From NCBI GenBank assembly GCA_028292285.1, contig JAQGMP010000397.1:1-39053 (forward strand): a stretch of 39,053 bases of DNA. The letters run 5' to 3'. A program made the translations under genes and the position numbers. The stretch is from Variovorax sp. GTDB taxonomy: Bacteria > Pseudomonadota > Gammaproteobacteria > Burkholderiales > Burkholderiaceae_C. Shown one piece after another: positions 5,760 to 39,053 of the stretch. The stretch's first letter is position 1; each line of letters starts with the position of its first letter. The notes beneath the pieces are model-generated. The model did no database searches. It was not told the origin of the DNA and was given only the letters and a program-made list of their open reading frames with translations.

Positions 5760-6173
5760 TCCATTTGGATTTCGATGCGCCAGGGCTGAGCATGCCGAAC
5801 CTTTGATATCCGAGCTTCGATGCTCCGGGATCAGCCCGGCGGACACTCTCCCGGTGCCGAGTGCCTTGCGCAAAGTGAGCACGCGTCGAGAACGCGCGAG
5901 CCCCCGACTGCGCTTTTGCAAAGGCCAGATGCTGGCGGCGCCGTGCGCGGTTACGCTCGATTCCGTACGCTCAGACACAGCGGTAACCTCCGCAAAGCCG
6001 GATCTACCCGAGAGGCATGGAGCGCAATCGTTGCGACGTACCAGCGACGTTGCGCGCGGAAAAGCGGTCGCGAGCGAAGCCGCGAATCGCGGGCGAGAGA
6101 TCGAAAGCCTGTCGCGCGCATCCGGCTGCCTGCAATTCACTTCATCCAACAGGCGAGAGGCCGGGATCAATTC
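5760..6173. other. Spacer without a recognisable gene
   Basis: About 410 bases downstream of the permease. Several frames stay open across it, but they are arginine- and serine-rich, mutually overlapping and lack ribosome-binding sites. I see no repeat or RNA signature. Confidence 0.45.
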
Positions 6174-6320
6174 ATGGCGCGACCGCCAATCAAGTTTGCA
6201 CGAGGCACCGAAGACATCCGCACGGCGCAGGAGCCCGCGGCTGAGATTCCAAGAGACTCTCTTTTTGAGTTGTCGTCGCACCGGGATGCGGCGGAGCAAC
6301 TTGAATGCCGGGACACTTGA
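6174..6320 (+). CDS. Possible small acidic protein (48 aa)
   Basis: This frame encodes MARPPIKFARGTEDIRTA followed by an acidic helix-like tail ending QLECRDT. The amino-acid composition is more protein-like than in surrounding frames. The only ribosome-binding candidate is a weak purine stretch. The stop overlaps the promoter region of the next gene. I do not recognise it, and it may be a chance ORF. Confidence 0.27.
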   Translation: MARPPIKFARGTEDIRTAQEPAAEIPRDSLFELSSHRDAAEQLECRDT

Positions 6321-25939: not shown

Positions 25940-25969
25940 CTGACAGGGCGGTCCCTGTTTTTTTATACA
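25940..25969 (+). promoter_or_regulatory. Sigma70-type promoter overlapping a LexA-type box
   Basis: CTGACA (25940-25945), an 18-base spacer and TATACA (25964-25969) form a plausible -35/-10 pair. The -10 element lies inside the LexA-type palindrome, the usual geometry of SOS-repressed promoters. It precedes the DUF3072 gene by about 30 bases. Confidence 0.5.
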
Positions 25970-25970
25970 G
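25955..25970. promoter_or_regulatory. LexA (SOS) box, CTGT-N8-ACAG
   Basis: The sequence CTGTTTTTTTATACAG has the full CTGT-N8-ACAG frame and A/T-only centre of the E. coli-type LexA operator, which betaproteobacteria also use. It lies 32 bases before the GTG of the DUF3072 gene and over its -10 element. No other site in the window has an exact CTGT-N8-ACAG. Confidence 0.7.
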
Positions 25971-26001: not shown

Positions 26002-26229
26002 GTGACCGACAAGACGACCCAGGCGCATGCCGCGCAAAGCAACATGGAAAAGGATCCCAAAGACTGGGTCACGGGCGATGAGCCGATGACCGGTGCCCAG
26101 CGCTCCTATCTCAAGACCCTGTCCGAAGAGGCCAAAGAGAAAGTCGATGACAACCTCACGAAGGCCGAGGCATCACGGCGCATCGAGGAGCTGCAAGCGG
26201 AGACAGGCCGCGGCAAAGAGGCGCGGTAG
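26002..26229 (+). CDS. DUF3072 domain protein
   Basis: 75 residues. The C-terminal MTGAQRSYLKTLSEEAKEKV then NLTKAEASRRIEELQ is the DUF3072 motif. It starts at GTG 26002, which has a strong AAGGAG seven bases upstream; the longer track frame has no good start. Function is unknown. A LexA-type box and promoter lie directly upstream, so it may be DNA-damage inducible. The VOC gene follows 54 bases downstream on the same strand, likely as an operon. Confidence 0.85.
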   Translation: MTDKTTQAHAAQSNMEKDPKDWVTGDEPMTGAQRSYLKTLSEEAKEKVDDNLTKAEASRRIEELQAETGRGKEAR

Positions 26230-26819: not shown

Positions 26820-29408
26820 TCAGCGTCCCGGTTTGAACCCCAGCGCTTGCATCGGCCGGGACAGCGTCTGTTTGGCTTTCCAGTAGTCAGCCCATGGATC
26901 GATCTTCTGGAATGACAGATGTTCCCGCGCGGTGGCGATAGTCCACTGTGCACCGCCCTTGAGCTTTACGAGGTCATCCCAGGCAACCGGCATGGATACG
27001 CCCAGGCCCGGCCGGGCGCGCGCCGAGAAGGCCGCCGCGGTGGTGGCGCCGTGTCCGTTGCGCAGGTAGTCGACGAACAGCTTGCCGATCCGGTTGGCTG
27101 GACCGCTCTTGGCGACGAAGCGCGAAGGAATTGTCTGCGCCAGGTGCTGCACGATTGCCTTAGAGAACGCGTTGACGGTGTCGTAGCCGGTCCGCGGAGC
27201 CAGCGGCACCACGACGTGCAGTCCCTTGCCGCCGCTGGTCTTGAGCCAGGCTTGGAGACCCAAAGCCGAAAGCAAGGTGCGGGTGAGGCTGGCCGCTTCC
27301 TGGATGTGCTCCCAGGTGGTTCCCTCGCCGGGGTCCAGGTCGAAGATCATCCGGTCGGGTTTGTCGATGGCTTTCTTTGTCGAGTTCCATGTGTGGAATT
27401 CAATGACGTTGAGCTGCGCGGCGCCCGCCAGCGCCTGGGCGTTGCCGACCTCCAGCAGCGATGCATGGCCGGGCCACAGCGCGGCATCCAGTTCCGTGAT
27501 GCCGGGGATGCCGATCTTCTCTCCGTGCTTCTGGAAAAAGAGCTGGCCACCGACGCCTTGCGGGCCCCGCACCAGCGACACCGGCCGGCCCGTCAGGTGC
27601 GGCAGGATGAAGTCCGCCACAGACTCGTAGTAGCGCACCAGGTCCAATTTGGTCAGCCCGGATGCCGCATCGATCACGCGTTCGCCGTGACTGACCTTGA
27701 CGCCGCTCGACGTCCTGGCCGGAGCGCTCTTCCTTGACGCAACGTTGCCGACGTCTTTCGCGGTCTCGCGCACGATGAGGTCGGCCGCCTTGTCGGCGCG
27801 AAGGCTCAGGAACGACGCGTGGCGGATCTGGCCATCAGGCGTCCATTCCGCAAACGTGACCTCGGCCACCAGCACGGGTTGAACCCAGCGCTCCGCACTG
27901 GCGGCCCGCTTTGACCAGCGCCCTGGCCGGGACGGCCCCGCGGCGAAGGGTGCCTTCACGAGGTGCAGCGGCTCGAGCTTGAGCTTCAGTTCGTGCGCCG
28001 TGTCGGTGTCCCACCCGGTGCCGACGCTGCCCGCGGACACCAGTTGCCCGTCGGGCGCATGGACACCGAGCAGCAGGCTGCCAATCTGCGTGCTGTTGTC
28101 GCTGCGATCGGTGTAGCCGCAGACGACGAACTCCTGACGCAGCTTGCATTTCAGCTTGAGCCAGGCATCGGTGCGGCGCGAGGCATAGGGCGCATCGGCG
28201 CGCTTGGCGATCACGCCCTCCAGGTTCAGGCGGCAAGCAGACGACAGGATGGAGGCGGGGTCGGCTTCGAAGTCGGCGCTGAAGCGCACGTGCTCGGTCG
28301 ACTTCTGGTCGAGCAGGGCCTTCAGCAAGTGGCGCCGATCGCGTTGCGCGACGGCACGCAGGTCGTAGCCTTCGAAGAACGGAACGTCGAAGAGGAAGTA
28401 GACGATCTTCTCGGCACCGTGTCCGCGATCAAAGGCATTCTGAAGCGCATTGAAATCCGGCGTACCGTTCGCGCCGGGCACCACGATCTCGCCGTCCAGC
28501 CAGCCCGACTTCAGCCCCAGCTGCTCGAGTTCTTCGACGAGCGCGGGCATTTTGGCGGACCAGTCGTGGCCACCGCGGGTGATAAGTCGGGCCTTGCCCT
28601 TGTCGATCCGCGCCATGATGCGATAGCCATCGAACTTGATCTCGAAGATCCATTCGCCTTGCGAGGGCACGCCCGCCGCGAGCGTGGCCAGTTGCGGCGA
28701 GAGCTTCTCGGGCAGCATGGCCTTGACGGCACCCGTCGGTTTGGCATTGCCATCCGCCGCGGCCGCGCGCGACGCGCGGCCTGCGACGGGCGGATCCTCG
28801 AGGGCATCGGCGTTGCGCTTCGGCGCGCGCGTCAGCGCATCCTCATCGTGCTTCCTAATCACGCTGTCGGGCAGCGCACTGACGACGTCGTATTCGGACT
28901 TCGGCCGCGCGAACGCGTCGCGCTTCTTGAACAGGATCCATGGCTCCTGTTTCTCGCCCCCCTTGGCGATTCTCACCAGTTCCCATAGGCCCTGCAGTTT
29001 GTGGCCGTGGAGCTTGAAGAGAACCTTGCCGGCAGCCATTGCCAGCCGGGGGTCGCCGACGGGTTCCCAGGTTCCATGGTCCCAGACGATGACCTCGCCC
29101 GCACCGTACTGTCTGGGCGGGATCGTGCCTTCAAAGGAACCGTACGACAGTGGATGGTCTTCTACATGGATCGCCATGCGCTTGTCGAGCGGATCGAAGC
29201 TTGGCCCCTTGGGCAATGCCCAGGACACCAGCACGCCGCCAAGTTCCAGGCGGAAGTCGTAGTGCAGTCGGCTCGCCGCATGCTTCTGTATGACGAACGT
29301 GAGCGCGCGGTCCTTGACCCGGGCATCCTGGACTTGCTCGCCGCGCGGCTCGCGTGTGACCGCGAAATCGCGCATCGCCCGGTAGCGCGCCAGCGGCCCG
29401 TCAGTCAT
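26820..29408 (-). CDS. ligD: Multidomain ATP-dependent DNA ligase D
   Basis: 862 residues in the order phosphoesterase-ligase-polymerase. The N-terminal 3'-phosphoesterase domain has RLHYDFRLELGG and IHVEDHPLSYGSFEG. The ligase has the adenylation lysine in EIKFDGYRI (Lys about 258), FLFDVPFFEG, EGVIAKRADAPY and WLKLKC. The C-terminal primase/polymerase has IFDLDPGEGTTWEH and KTSGGKGLHVVVPL. LigD repairs double-strand breaks with Ku by non-homologous end joining. I chose the ATG at 29408 with GAGGG upstream; the long track ORF reads into the next gene. No Ku gene is present in the window. The gene follows DUF3606 after 35 bp. Confidence 0.96.
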   Translation of the reverse strand: MTDGPLARYRAMRDFAVTREPRGEQVQDARVKDRALTFVIQKHAASRLHYDFRLELGGVLVSWALPKGPSFDPLDKRMAIHVEDHPLSYGSFEGTIPPRQYGAGEVIVWDHGTWEPVGDPRLAMAAGKVLFKLHGHKLQGLWELVRIAKGGEKQEPWILFKKRDAFARPKSEYDVVSALPDSVIRKHDEDALTRAPKRNADALEDPPVAGRASRAAAADGNAKPTGAVKAMLPEKLSPQLATLAAGVPSQGEWIFEIKFDGYRIMARIDKGKARLITRGGHDWSAKMPALVEELEQLGLKSGWLDGEIVVPGANGTPDFNALQNAFDRGHGAEKIVYFLFDVPFFEGYDLRAVAQRDRRHLLKALLDQKSTEHVRFSADFEADPASILSSACRLNLEGVIAKRADAPYASRRTDAWLKLKCKLRQEFVVCGYTDRSDNSTQIGSLLLGVHAPDGQLVSAGSVGTGWDTDTAHELKLKLEPLHLVKAPFAAGPSRPGRWSKRAASAERWVQPVLVAEVTFAEWTPDGQIRHASFLSLRADKAADLIVRETAKDVGNVASRKSAPARTSSGVKVSHGERVIDAASGLTKLDLVRYYESVADFILPHLTGRPVSLVRGPQGVGGQLFFQKHGEKIGIPGITELDAALWPGHASLLEVGNAQALAGAAQLNVIEFHTWNSTKKAIDKPDRMIFDLDPGEGTTWEHIQEAASLTRTLLSALGLQAWLKTSGGKGLHVVVPLAPRTGYDTVNAFSKAIVQHLAQTIPSRFVAKSGPANRIGKLFVDYLRNGHGATTAAAFSARARPGLGVSMPVAWDDLVKLKGGAQWTIATAREHLSFQKIDPWADYWKAKQTLSRPMQALGFKPGR

Positions 29409-29443: not shown

Positions 29444-29620
29444 TTACTTCTTGCCGAGGTGTTTTCGCACGGCGTCGGCCGAGTTTCCTACGGCCTTGAC
29501 CGCCGCGCGCAATTGCTCTGGTGTGCAACCGAGGCTCTTGCACCAGTCGCGCAGCTCGTAGTCCTCTTTCAGGCTGATCAGCTTGCGGTCCTGTGCCGTC
29601 TTGCTGGTGTCGTCGCTCAT
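29444..29620 (-). CDS. DUF3606 small protein
   Basis: 58 residues, below the size limit of the track and hidden behind another frame. The protein runs MSDDTSKTAQDRKLISLKED, then YELRDWCKSLGCTPEQLRAA and a VKAVGNSADAVRKHL end. This is the DUF3606 pattern (a two-helix small protein). AAGGAG precedes the ATG by seven bases. It lies 35 bases upstream of ligD on the same strand, suggesting an operon. Function is unknown; the family often sits near repair or stress genes. Confidence 0.9.
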   Translation of the reverse strand: MSDDTSKTAQDRKLISLKEDYELRDWCKSLGCTPEQLRAAVKAVGNSADAVRKHLGKK

Positions 29621-29734: not shown

Positions 29735-30505
29735 TCAGTTCCTGAGTTCGACCCACGCCGGGGCGTGATCGCTGCTGCCCTCCAGGCCGCGGACGGCGCG
29801 ATCCGCGCCCGCGCGCCGCATGCGCCGCGCCACGCTCGGGCTGAGAAGCAGGTGGTCGATGCGCATCCCGGCGTCACGCGGCCAGCGGTTGCGCAGATAG
29901 CTCCAGAACGTATAGATTGACTTGTGCGGCGACTGGCGATGCAGCGCGTCGGTCCATCCCGCCTCAAGCAGCTCCCGATAGGCCGCACGCGGCGCCGGCT
30001 GAAGCAACGCGTTATCGACGAAGGAGCGCGTGGCATAGATGTCCGCATCGGTCGGCACCACGTTGTAGTCTCCGGCCAGTACCGCCGGGTGGCCCGACGA
30101 GAGCAGCGTGGCTGCGTGCGCGTTGAACCGCTTGAACCAGTCGAGCTTGTAGGCGAACTTGGGACCGGGCTGCGGGTTGCCGTTGGGCATGTAGCAGCAG
30201 CCGATGACCACGCCCTGCACGGCCGCTTCCAGATACCGAGCTTCCTTGTCCGACGGATCGCCCGGCAGCCCGCGCCTCACTTCCAATGGCATCTCCCTGG
30301 CCAGAATGGCGACGCCGTTCCAGCTGGTCTGCCCCAGCACCAGCGCTTCGTAGCCCATGGAGCGGACCTCCTCATACGGGAATGCAGCGGAGGTGCACTT
30401 GAGCTCCTGCAAACACACGACGTCCGGGGACGTCACATCGAGCCACGCGCGCAACGTCTCGAGTCGCTTGCGGACATTGTTGATGTTGTACGTCGCGATG
30501 CGCAA
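29735..30505 (-). CDS. xthA: Exodeoxyribonuclease III
   Basis: 256 residues. All exonuclease-endonuclease-phosphatase motifs are present: MRIATYNINNVRKR, VVCLQELKCT, AGDYNVVPTDADIY, the MRIDHLLLS segment and SSDHAPAWVEL. It is an AP endonuclease/3'-5' exonuclease acting in base excision repair in the cytoplasm. It lies 115 bases downstream of DUF3606-ligD in the same orientation order, that is, upstream on the reverse strand. A possible small ORF begins the transcript. Confidence 0.95.
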   Translation of the reverse strand: MRIATYNINNVRKRLETLRAWLDVTSPDVVCLQELKCTSAAFPYEEVRSMGYEALVLGQTSWNGVAILAREMPLEVRRGLPGDPSDKEARYLEAAVQGVVIGCCYMPNGNPQPGPKFAYKLDWFKRFNAHAATLLSSGHPAVLAGDYNVVPTDADIYATRSFVDNALLQPAPRAAYRELLEAGWTDALHRQSPHKSIYTFWSYLRNRWPRDAGMRIDHLLLSPSVARRMRRAGADRAVRGLEGSSDHAPAWVELRN

Positions 30506-35024: not shown

Positions 35025-35732
35025 TCAAGGCGCCTCGTCGCTGTCGTTCGTTGCGACCAACGCCGCAGGCGGCACGATGGGCCCAGCGACGAACACCTCG
35101 ACAGGCGACAGCCGCAGCAACTGCTTCGCTTCCTCGACGGTGCCCGCCAGCCACTGGTCGACATCGCCCGCTTCGATCGGGATCACGCTGCGCTTGTCCT
35201 GGTCGTCCGGCCCGGCTTTCGGGTCGGGCTTGTGCATGCGGCGCATCAGCGCGTGGTCGTCGGCGTTGATCGTGAGCATCGTGTAGCTCTCGTGCACCTC
35301 GCCCGTGTCCCTGTTTGTCCAGACGTTCCACAGGCCCGCCAAGCCCCACGGCGCCCCGTCCGCCCGGCTGAACTGCCACCAGATGTTCTTGCCCGTTTCC
35401 CAGTTCGGCTCATCGAACGAGGCCGCGGGAATGATGCAGCGCTGCCCGCGCTTCCATGGGTCTTTGTAGCTGGCCTTCTCGGCCAGCTCTTCGCTGCGCG
35501 CGTTGTTGGTCGGGAATTTGAGCCTGGGCTCTCTGGCGAACCACGGGATCAAACCCCACTGGCCTACGACCAGCTCGCGCTCGTAGCCCGTCGAGTGCCG
35601 CGCACGGCGGATGAAAGGGCCGGGCGACCGAGGGAAGACCTGGCGCGCAAAGAGCGGCGGCTGGTTCGTCGGGCCGAGATGCCAGAAGCGCTCCATCTCG
35701 GCCTCGGCCGGCGTGACGTATCGATTGCACAT
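35025..35732 (-). CDS. SRAP-family protein (YedK/HMCES-type)
   Basis: 235 residues. The catalytic Cys2 follows the initiator Met (MCNRYV), the strand with FPTNNARSE carries the conserved asparagine/arginine pair and the FDEPNW segment holds the conserved glutamate. ALMRRMHKPDPK carries the active-site histidine. Family members form a thiazolidine crosslink with abasic sites in single-stranded DNA, shielding it during replication; the bacterial name, SOS response-associated peptidase, reflects genomic association with SOS genes. The gene lies 54 bases downstream of the unknown 144-residue gene, and a LexA-type box stands at the head of this cluster. Confidence 0.93.
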   Translation of the reverse strand: MCNRYVTPAEAEMERFWHLGPTNQPPLFARQVFPRSPGPFIRRARHSTGYERELVVGQWGLIPWFAREPRLKFPTNNARSEELAEKASYKDPWKRGQRCIIPAASFDEPNWETGKNIWWQFSRADGAPWGLAGLWNVWTNRDTGEVHESYTMLTINADDHALMRRMHKPDPKAGPDDQDKRSVIPIEAGDVDQWLAGTVEEAKQLLRLSPVEVFVAGPIVPPAALVATNDSDEAP

Positions 35733-35786
35733 GGGGGAGATTCTGCGGTGTGCCTGCCCCCATGTTCGTCGGACACCAGCGAGATT

Positions 35787-36221
35787 TCAGCATCCGCGCG
35801 GGTGCGAGTCGATACATGGCCATCTGGGCCCATTCCCTGTTTCACGCACACTTGCTTGCGAGCTCGAGTCCAGCGTGTCACCGAAGGCGATATCCACGAA
35901 CTCACCGCTGCCAAGATCGAGCGCCAGCTCGTTCAGCTCCCAGCGAAGTTCGTGGACGGCCGCAAGCTGCGCGCCGCGGTTGCCCAGAAACCACTCCTCA
36001 AAATCTCCGGTAGCGTCCGCCGCCCAATCCCGGGTCGCCAGCGATTCACCGTGGCGACAACGCCCTTCGACGATGCCGAGGGTGCTCTCCACGCCAGGCA
36101 TGCCCACCCTGGCGTCCAGACCCCCATGGTGCATCACGTCCCAAAGCTCCGCCGGTGTGGCTGTGTCGAGCCAACGCTCGCCACGGCATACAAGCTCCTC
36201 GTATTCATTCAGGGCGCTCAT
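35787..36221 (-). CDS. Hypothetical protein in SRAP operon (144 aa)
   Basis: The protein begins MSALNEYEELVCRGERWLDT and continues WDVMHHGGLDARVGMPGVES, then a TRDWAADATGDFEEWF region and LRWELNELALDLGSGEFV. It is acidic and mixed alpha/beta with no membrane segment. I do not recognise a family. GAGGAG stands nine bases upstream of the ATG at 36221. Its start overlaps the previous gene by 17 bases, so the two are co-translated or at least co-transcribed. The SRAP gene follows, suggesting a DNA-damage role, which is only inference. Confidence 0.75.
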   Translation of the reverse strand: MSALNEYEELVCRGERWLDTATPAELWDVMHHGGLDARVGMPGVESTLGIVEGRCRHGESLATRDWAADATGDFEEWFLGNRGAQLAAVHELRWELNELALDLGSGEFVDIAFGDTLDSSSQASVRETGNGPRWPCIDSHPRGC

Positions 36222-36414
36222 TTGGAGACTCCTCGCTTGTGACAGGTTTGAGCCACTCGGTCGCAGCGTCCGTCGGCGTCAGGCTGCGCAAGTGCTCGTC
36301 CCGCCATAGATCGCGCGCCAGCTCTTCGAGGACAGCCGCGTCGATCGTTCGCCAACGCTGGTGCAAGCGGTGCGCGCAAGCCCCAATCCAAACATCAGCG
36401 TTCAACGATTCCAT
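36205..36414 (-). CDS. Hypothetical protein, first gene of the SRAP operon (69 aa)
   Basis: The protein begins MESLNADVWIGACAHRLHQR, continues WRTIDAAVLEELARDLWRDE and ends in a TEWLKPV segment. The rhythm of W and R in helices suggests a small helical protein. It is unrecognised. The ATG at 36414 is chosen; the track's start at 36429 is a TTG. No ribosome-binding site is obvious. The LexA-type box at 36435-36450 ends about 20 bases before the ATG. It overlaps the next gene by 17 bases. Confidence 0.7.
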   Translation of the reverse strand: MESLNADVWIGACAHRLHQRWRTIDAAVLEELARDLWRDEHLRSLTPTDAATEWLKPVTSEESPNERPE

Positions 36415-36434
36415 ATCGACATCGTACAAAACAA

Positions 36435-36450
36435 CTGGATGTATGTACAG
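36435..36450. promoter_or_regulatory. LexA (SOS) box between dnaE2 and the SRAP operon
   Basis: CTGGATGTATGTACAG has the CTG-N10-CAG frame of a LexA operator, with one mismatch (CTGG instead of CTGT) to CTGT-N8-ACAG. It lies 34 bases before the dnaE2 start and 20 bases before the start of the divergent gene at 36414, the classic place for a shared operator. dnaE2 is LexA-regulated in characterised bacteria, which supports the call. Confidence 0.7.

Positions 36451-36484: not shown

Positions 36485-39053
<2,569 letters not shown>

Follow-up and report, generated by a model that had tools for sequence, protein, structure and literature searches.

The 69-residue protein encoded beside dnaE2 in this Variovorax genome, hereafter P1, is a member of a hitherto unclassified family of acidic, helical proteins of 60-70 residues whose genes would, judging from their operators, be controlled by LexA. 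We propose, with a probability of roughly 55%, that P1 acts on its own as an SOS effector, that SRAP and similar genes are expressed from its promoter as well, and that it is read here from a divergent SOS region. The window, meaning the whole stretch of 39,053 nucleotides that was analysed, is contig C258 of a fragmented genome that is 59% complete and that its relatives assign to Variovorax; the features of the locus are listed in Table 1.

Table 1. Features of the P1 locus, with positions in the window.
Feature	Position	Strand	Remarks
P1 (69-aa gene)	36205-36414	-	small acidic helical protein of a family with predicted LexA control
144-aa open frame	35787-36221	-	orphan; gene or mere open insertion between P1 and SRAP
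SRAP/YedK-family gene (235 aa)	35025-35732	-	Pfam PF02586
dnaE2 (error-prone DNA polymerase)	36485-39053	+	divergent; GTG start; cut by contig end
LexA operator CTGGATGTATGTACAG	36435-36450		between P1 and dnaE2
Predicted promoter -10 hexamer TACGAT	36421-36426	-	-12 to -7 before P1 ATG
GAGGAG, Shine-Dalgarno-like	36229-36234	-	7 nt before 144-aa ATG; read directly from the sequence

The initial annotation had described three leftward genes of 69, 144 and 235 residues with a LexA-type box at their head, and had suggested that they form an SOS operon. The three minus-strand frames, their 17-base overlap and their 54-base gap were all reproduced, and the box indeed heads the unit, 20 bp before the ATG of P1. 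On the other side of the box, at a distance of 34 bp from its GTG, starts dnaE2 (NCBIfam PRK05672, 1207 bits), a known SOS gene that was absent from that annotation.

The bare CTG-N10-CAG pattern is found 17 times in the window against 13.8 expected, and is therefore not significant; what makes the box at P1 significant is its AT-rich core, together with where it lies and how well it is conserved. AT-rich boxes have a background of 0.0024 per 60 bp; their density in DNA that is not near P1 genes is 0.039 per kb. Conservation in relatives is clear, as such a box is present upstream in 70 of the 81 named P1 copies, where chance would give about 0.2, and before P1 in 15 of 17 copies outside Variovorax. 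The distance from box to ATG at P1 copies is mostly 12-13 or 20-23 bp, which defines two main spacing classes. Two positive controls gave the expected result: lexA loci have two AT-rich boxes 19 bp apart in 11 Variovorax genomes, including the present one, and 11 of 11 recA loci of the genus have one or two. Both P1 and dnaE2 possess an operator of the host type near their start that is kept at orthologs, and we infer that the two genes would be repressed by LexA and induced by damage.

Among 61 unique P1 leaders, a -10-like hexamer is fixed at positions -12 to -7 before the ATG in both spacing classes, and it stays in place while the operator shifts by 8-9 bp from one class to the other. Transcription starting about 7 nt after this hexamer would fall on the AUG, which predicts a leaderless mRNA. 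A C is favoured at -1 of the ATG in both classes, and a Shine-Dalgarno-like 4-mer precedes only 1 of the 61 leaders' start codons as compared to 49 of 174 control genes. The P1 mRNA is thus probably leaderless and would start at its AUG.

Of 61 Variovorax genomes, 46 contain P1 relatives, at one to five copies per genome, and a profile search detected them in 22 of the 141 genera of the family, among them Variovorax, Xenophilus, Hydrogenophaga, Pseudacidovorax, Pseudorhodoferax, and Polaromonas. None was found beyond this bacterial family in 369 genomes of the class and 300 of the order, in a scan that scored about 20 candidates per genome at first pass and that distant members could escape. 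Synonymous change exceeds amino-acid change about four-fold (dN/dS ~0.25), indicating that P1 is translated. The alignment of 46 members contains 13 invariant columns, with the consensus MxxxPAxxWIAACAHRLQQxWRTVDPxELExVAxDLWRDERLRAMxPxxAAxxWLxP; all 46 have a net charge of -1 to -7 over their first 60 residues, and the last residues vary freely. The AlphaFold model (mean pLDDT 78, a moderate value) is all helix, with three main helices and a short one. As the 69-aa sequence has no uncharged stretch of at least 15 residues, it would contain no membrane-spanning helix.

In the PDB, neither a sequence-profile search nor a fold search with P1 gave a match below E 0.001; Pfam, NCBIfam, PHROGs, and PADLOC gave no usable match, and Rfam gave none. 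One member matched PKS_DE at 8e-5, yet the 45 others did not, and we consider this match due to chance. The best viral fold matches, to a 71-aa protein and to a 55-aa Pseudomonas phage protein, were not significant (E 0.25-0.44).

P1 also occurs on 35 viral or prophage contigs of IMG/VR, with the box in 34 of them, often beside endolysin, D12 methyltransferase or integrase genes and frequently with SRAP. The named phage genomes contained no P1, the viral copies being confined to IMG/VR contigs of prophage type. Within the genus, about 10-12 of 58 P1 loci look like prophages from shared DNA or markers, two of these calls resting on a rimO-like host gene at the insertion site. A single annotated plasmid copy was inspected, and its gene table, which is known to be incomplete, has no entry at this place.

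Proteins of the SRAP family shield abasic sites in single-stranded DNA by a crosslink through Cys2. The third gene was correctly assigned to this family (SRAP/YedK/HMCES, PF02586; 105.5 bits for a cut-off of 27.1): the 235-aa protein has Cys2 and the active-site Asn, Glu and His positions, its residues C2, N76/N77, E108, and H167 aligning with the active site of PDB 1zn6 (phmmer E 2e-33). The latter is a solved phage-related SRAP, whose active-site triad is given in a survey of the family (PMC3765255).

Among about 60 P1 loci in the genus, 19 have SRAP as the next gene and five have DUF72, the identity of DUF72 being confirmed by Pfam for one viral-contig copy. The end of P1 often overlaps the start of either gene by 29-41 nt, which suggests translational coupling. 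At the P1-SRAP loci, no box was detected within 150 bp of the SRAP start, so that SRAP would come under SOS control by way of the P1 promoter, and the two genes would be co-transcribed. By providing a predicted SOS promoter for SRAP in these bacteria, P1 may offer a naturally occurring example of an SRAP gene that responds directly to DNA damage. In the present genome the SRAP start lies 472 nt behind P1, with the 144-aa frame in the interval, and SRAP might here be served by a separate promoter. Most P1 copies have no adjacent SRAP, and in about ten genomes P1 stands alone at one chromosomal locus, between genes of 90 and 531 aa; many Variovorax SRAPs, in turn, have no P1.

What stands of the suggested SOS operon is the LexA-type promoter at its head and the P1-SRAP pair, which recurs in the genus and in prophages. 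The 144-aa protein, which had been put forward as a possible further repair partner, turned out to be an orphan: while the duo is conserved, the trio exists in the present genome only, and the frame is absent between P1 and SRAP in every relative. Searches of 100 relatives and of 399 genomes from the order brought up nothing related to it, nor did those of plasmids and viral contigs; a match of 29% (E 7e-4), located within an open frame of 743 aa, was taken as noise. The DNA inserted between P1 and SRAP likewise matched nothing among the sequences fetched, and in the nearest relative, whose SRAP is 92% identical (locus L035), the whole insertion is missing and P1 overlaps the SRAP start. A same-strand frame of equal length arises in 11.5% of shuffles of the region. 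This unremarkable length, together with the lack of conservation, weakens the case for a trio. The codon score of the frame is near 0 (neutral), but P1 is likewise atypical in codon usage, which makes the codon score alone weak evidence. The 144-aa frame is thus probably outside the conserved unit and may not be a gene, even if the GAGGAG ahead of its ATG would also fit a real orphan gene.

Broken copies of the locus were detected elsewhere in the same genome. A damaged copy of P1, fused to the first 36 residues of SRAP (89% identical), is found at L093 (2814-3081), and a separate piece of SRAP, 94% identical in DNA, at L094 (about 6091-6307), on contigs C180 and C80; contig C345 carries a piece of dnaE2 that is 97% identical. 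These suggest a decayed duplicate or a mixture of strains in the genome bin.

A dnaE2 gene is also divergent to a P1 homolog at four other loci (L145, L161, L168, and L197), and dnaE2 or umuDC is so placed at several. In the genus, close homologs of dnaE2 mostly carry a LexA box but lack P1, which makes the dnaE2-P1 pairing one of several arrangements; examples with the box at the start of dnaE2 are L261, L263-L265, L267, and L268. On the far side of P1 boxes we also observed divergent small genes that fall into several recurring families, none of them matched by Pfam (L036 5591-5836, L039 6144-6416, L083 6126-6554, L084 6169-6420, and L089 5614-5847), and these are possibly under predicted SOS control too. 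DUF3606-like frames adjoin some P1 genes.

Elsewhere in the window, a second AT-rich LexA-type box (CTGTTTTTTTATACAG, 25955-25970) lies 31 bp before a gene for a 75-aa DUF3072 protein (26002-26229, +). A similar box is present just upstream of this gene in three of three other Variovorax genomes that carry it (L329, L330, and L331), and DUF3072 may represent an unrecognised SOS gene. About 5 kb from SRAP is a cluster of genes for LigD, an end-joining ligase/polymerase (26820-29408, -), a small DUF3606 protein (29444-29620, -), and an exonuclease III-type enzyme (29735-30505, -).

In the explanation that we propose, the single LexA operator between the rightward dnaE2 and the leftward P1 would make up a divergent SOS promoter region. 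Removal of LexA by RecA-driven cleavage would allow the transcription of P1, probably without a leader from its AUG, and the genes behind it, most often SRAP, would ride on this transcript. SRAP could then form its Cys2 crosslink at abasic sites in single-stranded DNA and shield them. P1 itself would most likely bind and adjust a host replication, repair or SOS protein and would not be a subunit of SRAP, a preference that stems from its solo copies and its varied downstream genes. The effector role is a conjecture that draws no support from the AlphaFold model, which is only moderately confident and unlike any solved structure. A more far-reaching version, which we put forward tentatively and hold to be rather doubtful as a whole, is that P1 represents a new family of SOS effectors spread by prophages in Variovorax and its relatives, in which a leaderless LexA-controlled mRNA would encode a helical protein of 60 residues that has the SOS or replication machinery as its direct target, and whose promoter would serve as a repeated landing site for SRAP, DUF72 and other damage-tolerance genes.

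That P1 is repeatedly paired with SRAP, DUF72, dnaE2 and UmuDC might just as well mean that it is a partner of repair enzymes. The initial annotation had proposed that P1 could be a partner in processing abasic-site crosslinks or in translesion synthesis; in this reading it would bind SRAP or the polymerase at abasic sites and regulate crosslinking or bypass. The frequency of SRAP as next gene, a box that precedes P1 and not SRAP where P1 comes first, and the divergent dnaE2 or umuDC of several loci all agree with such a role, but they have to be set against the majority of P1 copies that have no neighbouring SRAP, including those kept solo at one chromosomal place, against the replacement of SRAP by DUF72, and against the many Variovorax SRAPs without P1. 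Moreover, in the Burkholderia phages KS9 and BgManors32 the LexA box lies directly before SRAP with no annotated P1-like gene between them. We therefore regard a working partnership with SRAP or the polymerases as rather unlikely. By analogy, P1 might instead modulate the SOS switch by binding LexA or RecA and tuning repression or recovery. A small, acidic, prophage-borne protein under predicted LexA control would be apt for this, such a function would suit both prophages and self-regulated solo copies, and there are precedents in gp7 of phage GIL01, which binds LexA and blocks its cleavage (PMC4551915), and in DdrR of Acinetobacter, an 81-aa corepressor encoded divergently to its repressor (PMC7273328). 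Family searches gave no similarity between P1 and either of them, and a switch modulator seems an unlikely identity for P1.

Two further readings were considered. P1 could be no more than a leader cistron close to the promoter, or belong to a regulatory RNA, with its translation driving the next gene and its peptide having no function of its own; the overlap with SRAP or DUF72 and the free variation of the last residues would be in line with this, yet the dN/dS value, the invariant residues, the retention of solo copies and the lack of an Rfam match make it very improbable. Finally, the box might serve dnaE2 alone, with the 69-aa, 144-aa and SRAP frames as constitutive neighbours. This would fit the status of dnaE2 as an SOS gene and its many homologs that have a box without P1, but P1 has its box at numerous loci where dnaE2 is not in the vicinity, and this reading has hardly any chance of holding. 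P1 is easy to test, thanks to its strong operator signature, its up to five copies per genome, its carriage by prophages, and its predicted leaderless start.

Several known systems share features with this locus. SOS gene neighbourhoods that combine SRAP with dnaE2 and umuDC are already known, and a leader gene of 60-70 aa before SRAP is not described in the excerpted text of the corresponding survey (PMC3765255). Phages KS9 and BgManors32 resemble the present unit in that SRAP, preceded by a LexA box, is located close to the end of the phage, in KS9 after spanin and DNA methyltransferase genes, and differ from it by having no P1 annotated between box and SRAP. GIL01 gp7 and DdrR are, like P1, small proteins tied to the SOS switch, the former phage-borne and the latter divergent from an SOS gene; they belong to different hosts, and no similarity to P1 was detectable by Pfam, NCBIfam, PHROGs, and PDB profile searches, without direct pairwise comparison. 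Among beta-Proteobacteria, LexA regulation has been predicted for the hypothetical genes hypA and hypB, in a study that included V. paradoxus (PMC3323433). Both encode uncharacterised proteins with predicted LexA sites, as P1 does, but hypB is described as restricted to Burkholderia and hypA as restricted to multi-chromosome species (PMC3323433), whereas P1 relatives are confined to their own family in the sampled genomes. HypA, whose locus tag is absent from the text of that study (PMC3323433), may nevertheless be equal to P1.

Annotation often overlooks small SOS proteins, yet the ones examined so far govern division, the stability of repressors or the membrane potential. Among them, SulA, SidA, DidA, and TisB are small, LexA-controlled and mostly stand-alone effectors. 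P1 differs from the membrane peptides SidA, DidA, and TisB in having no membrane-spanning hydrophobic stretch, and resembles all four in its small size, its LexA control as predicted from the operator, and its proposed stand-alone action.
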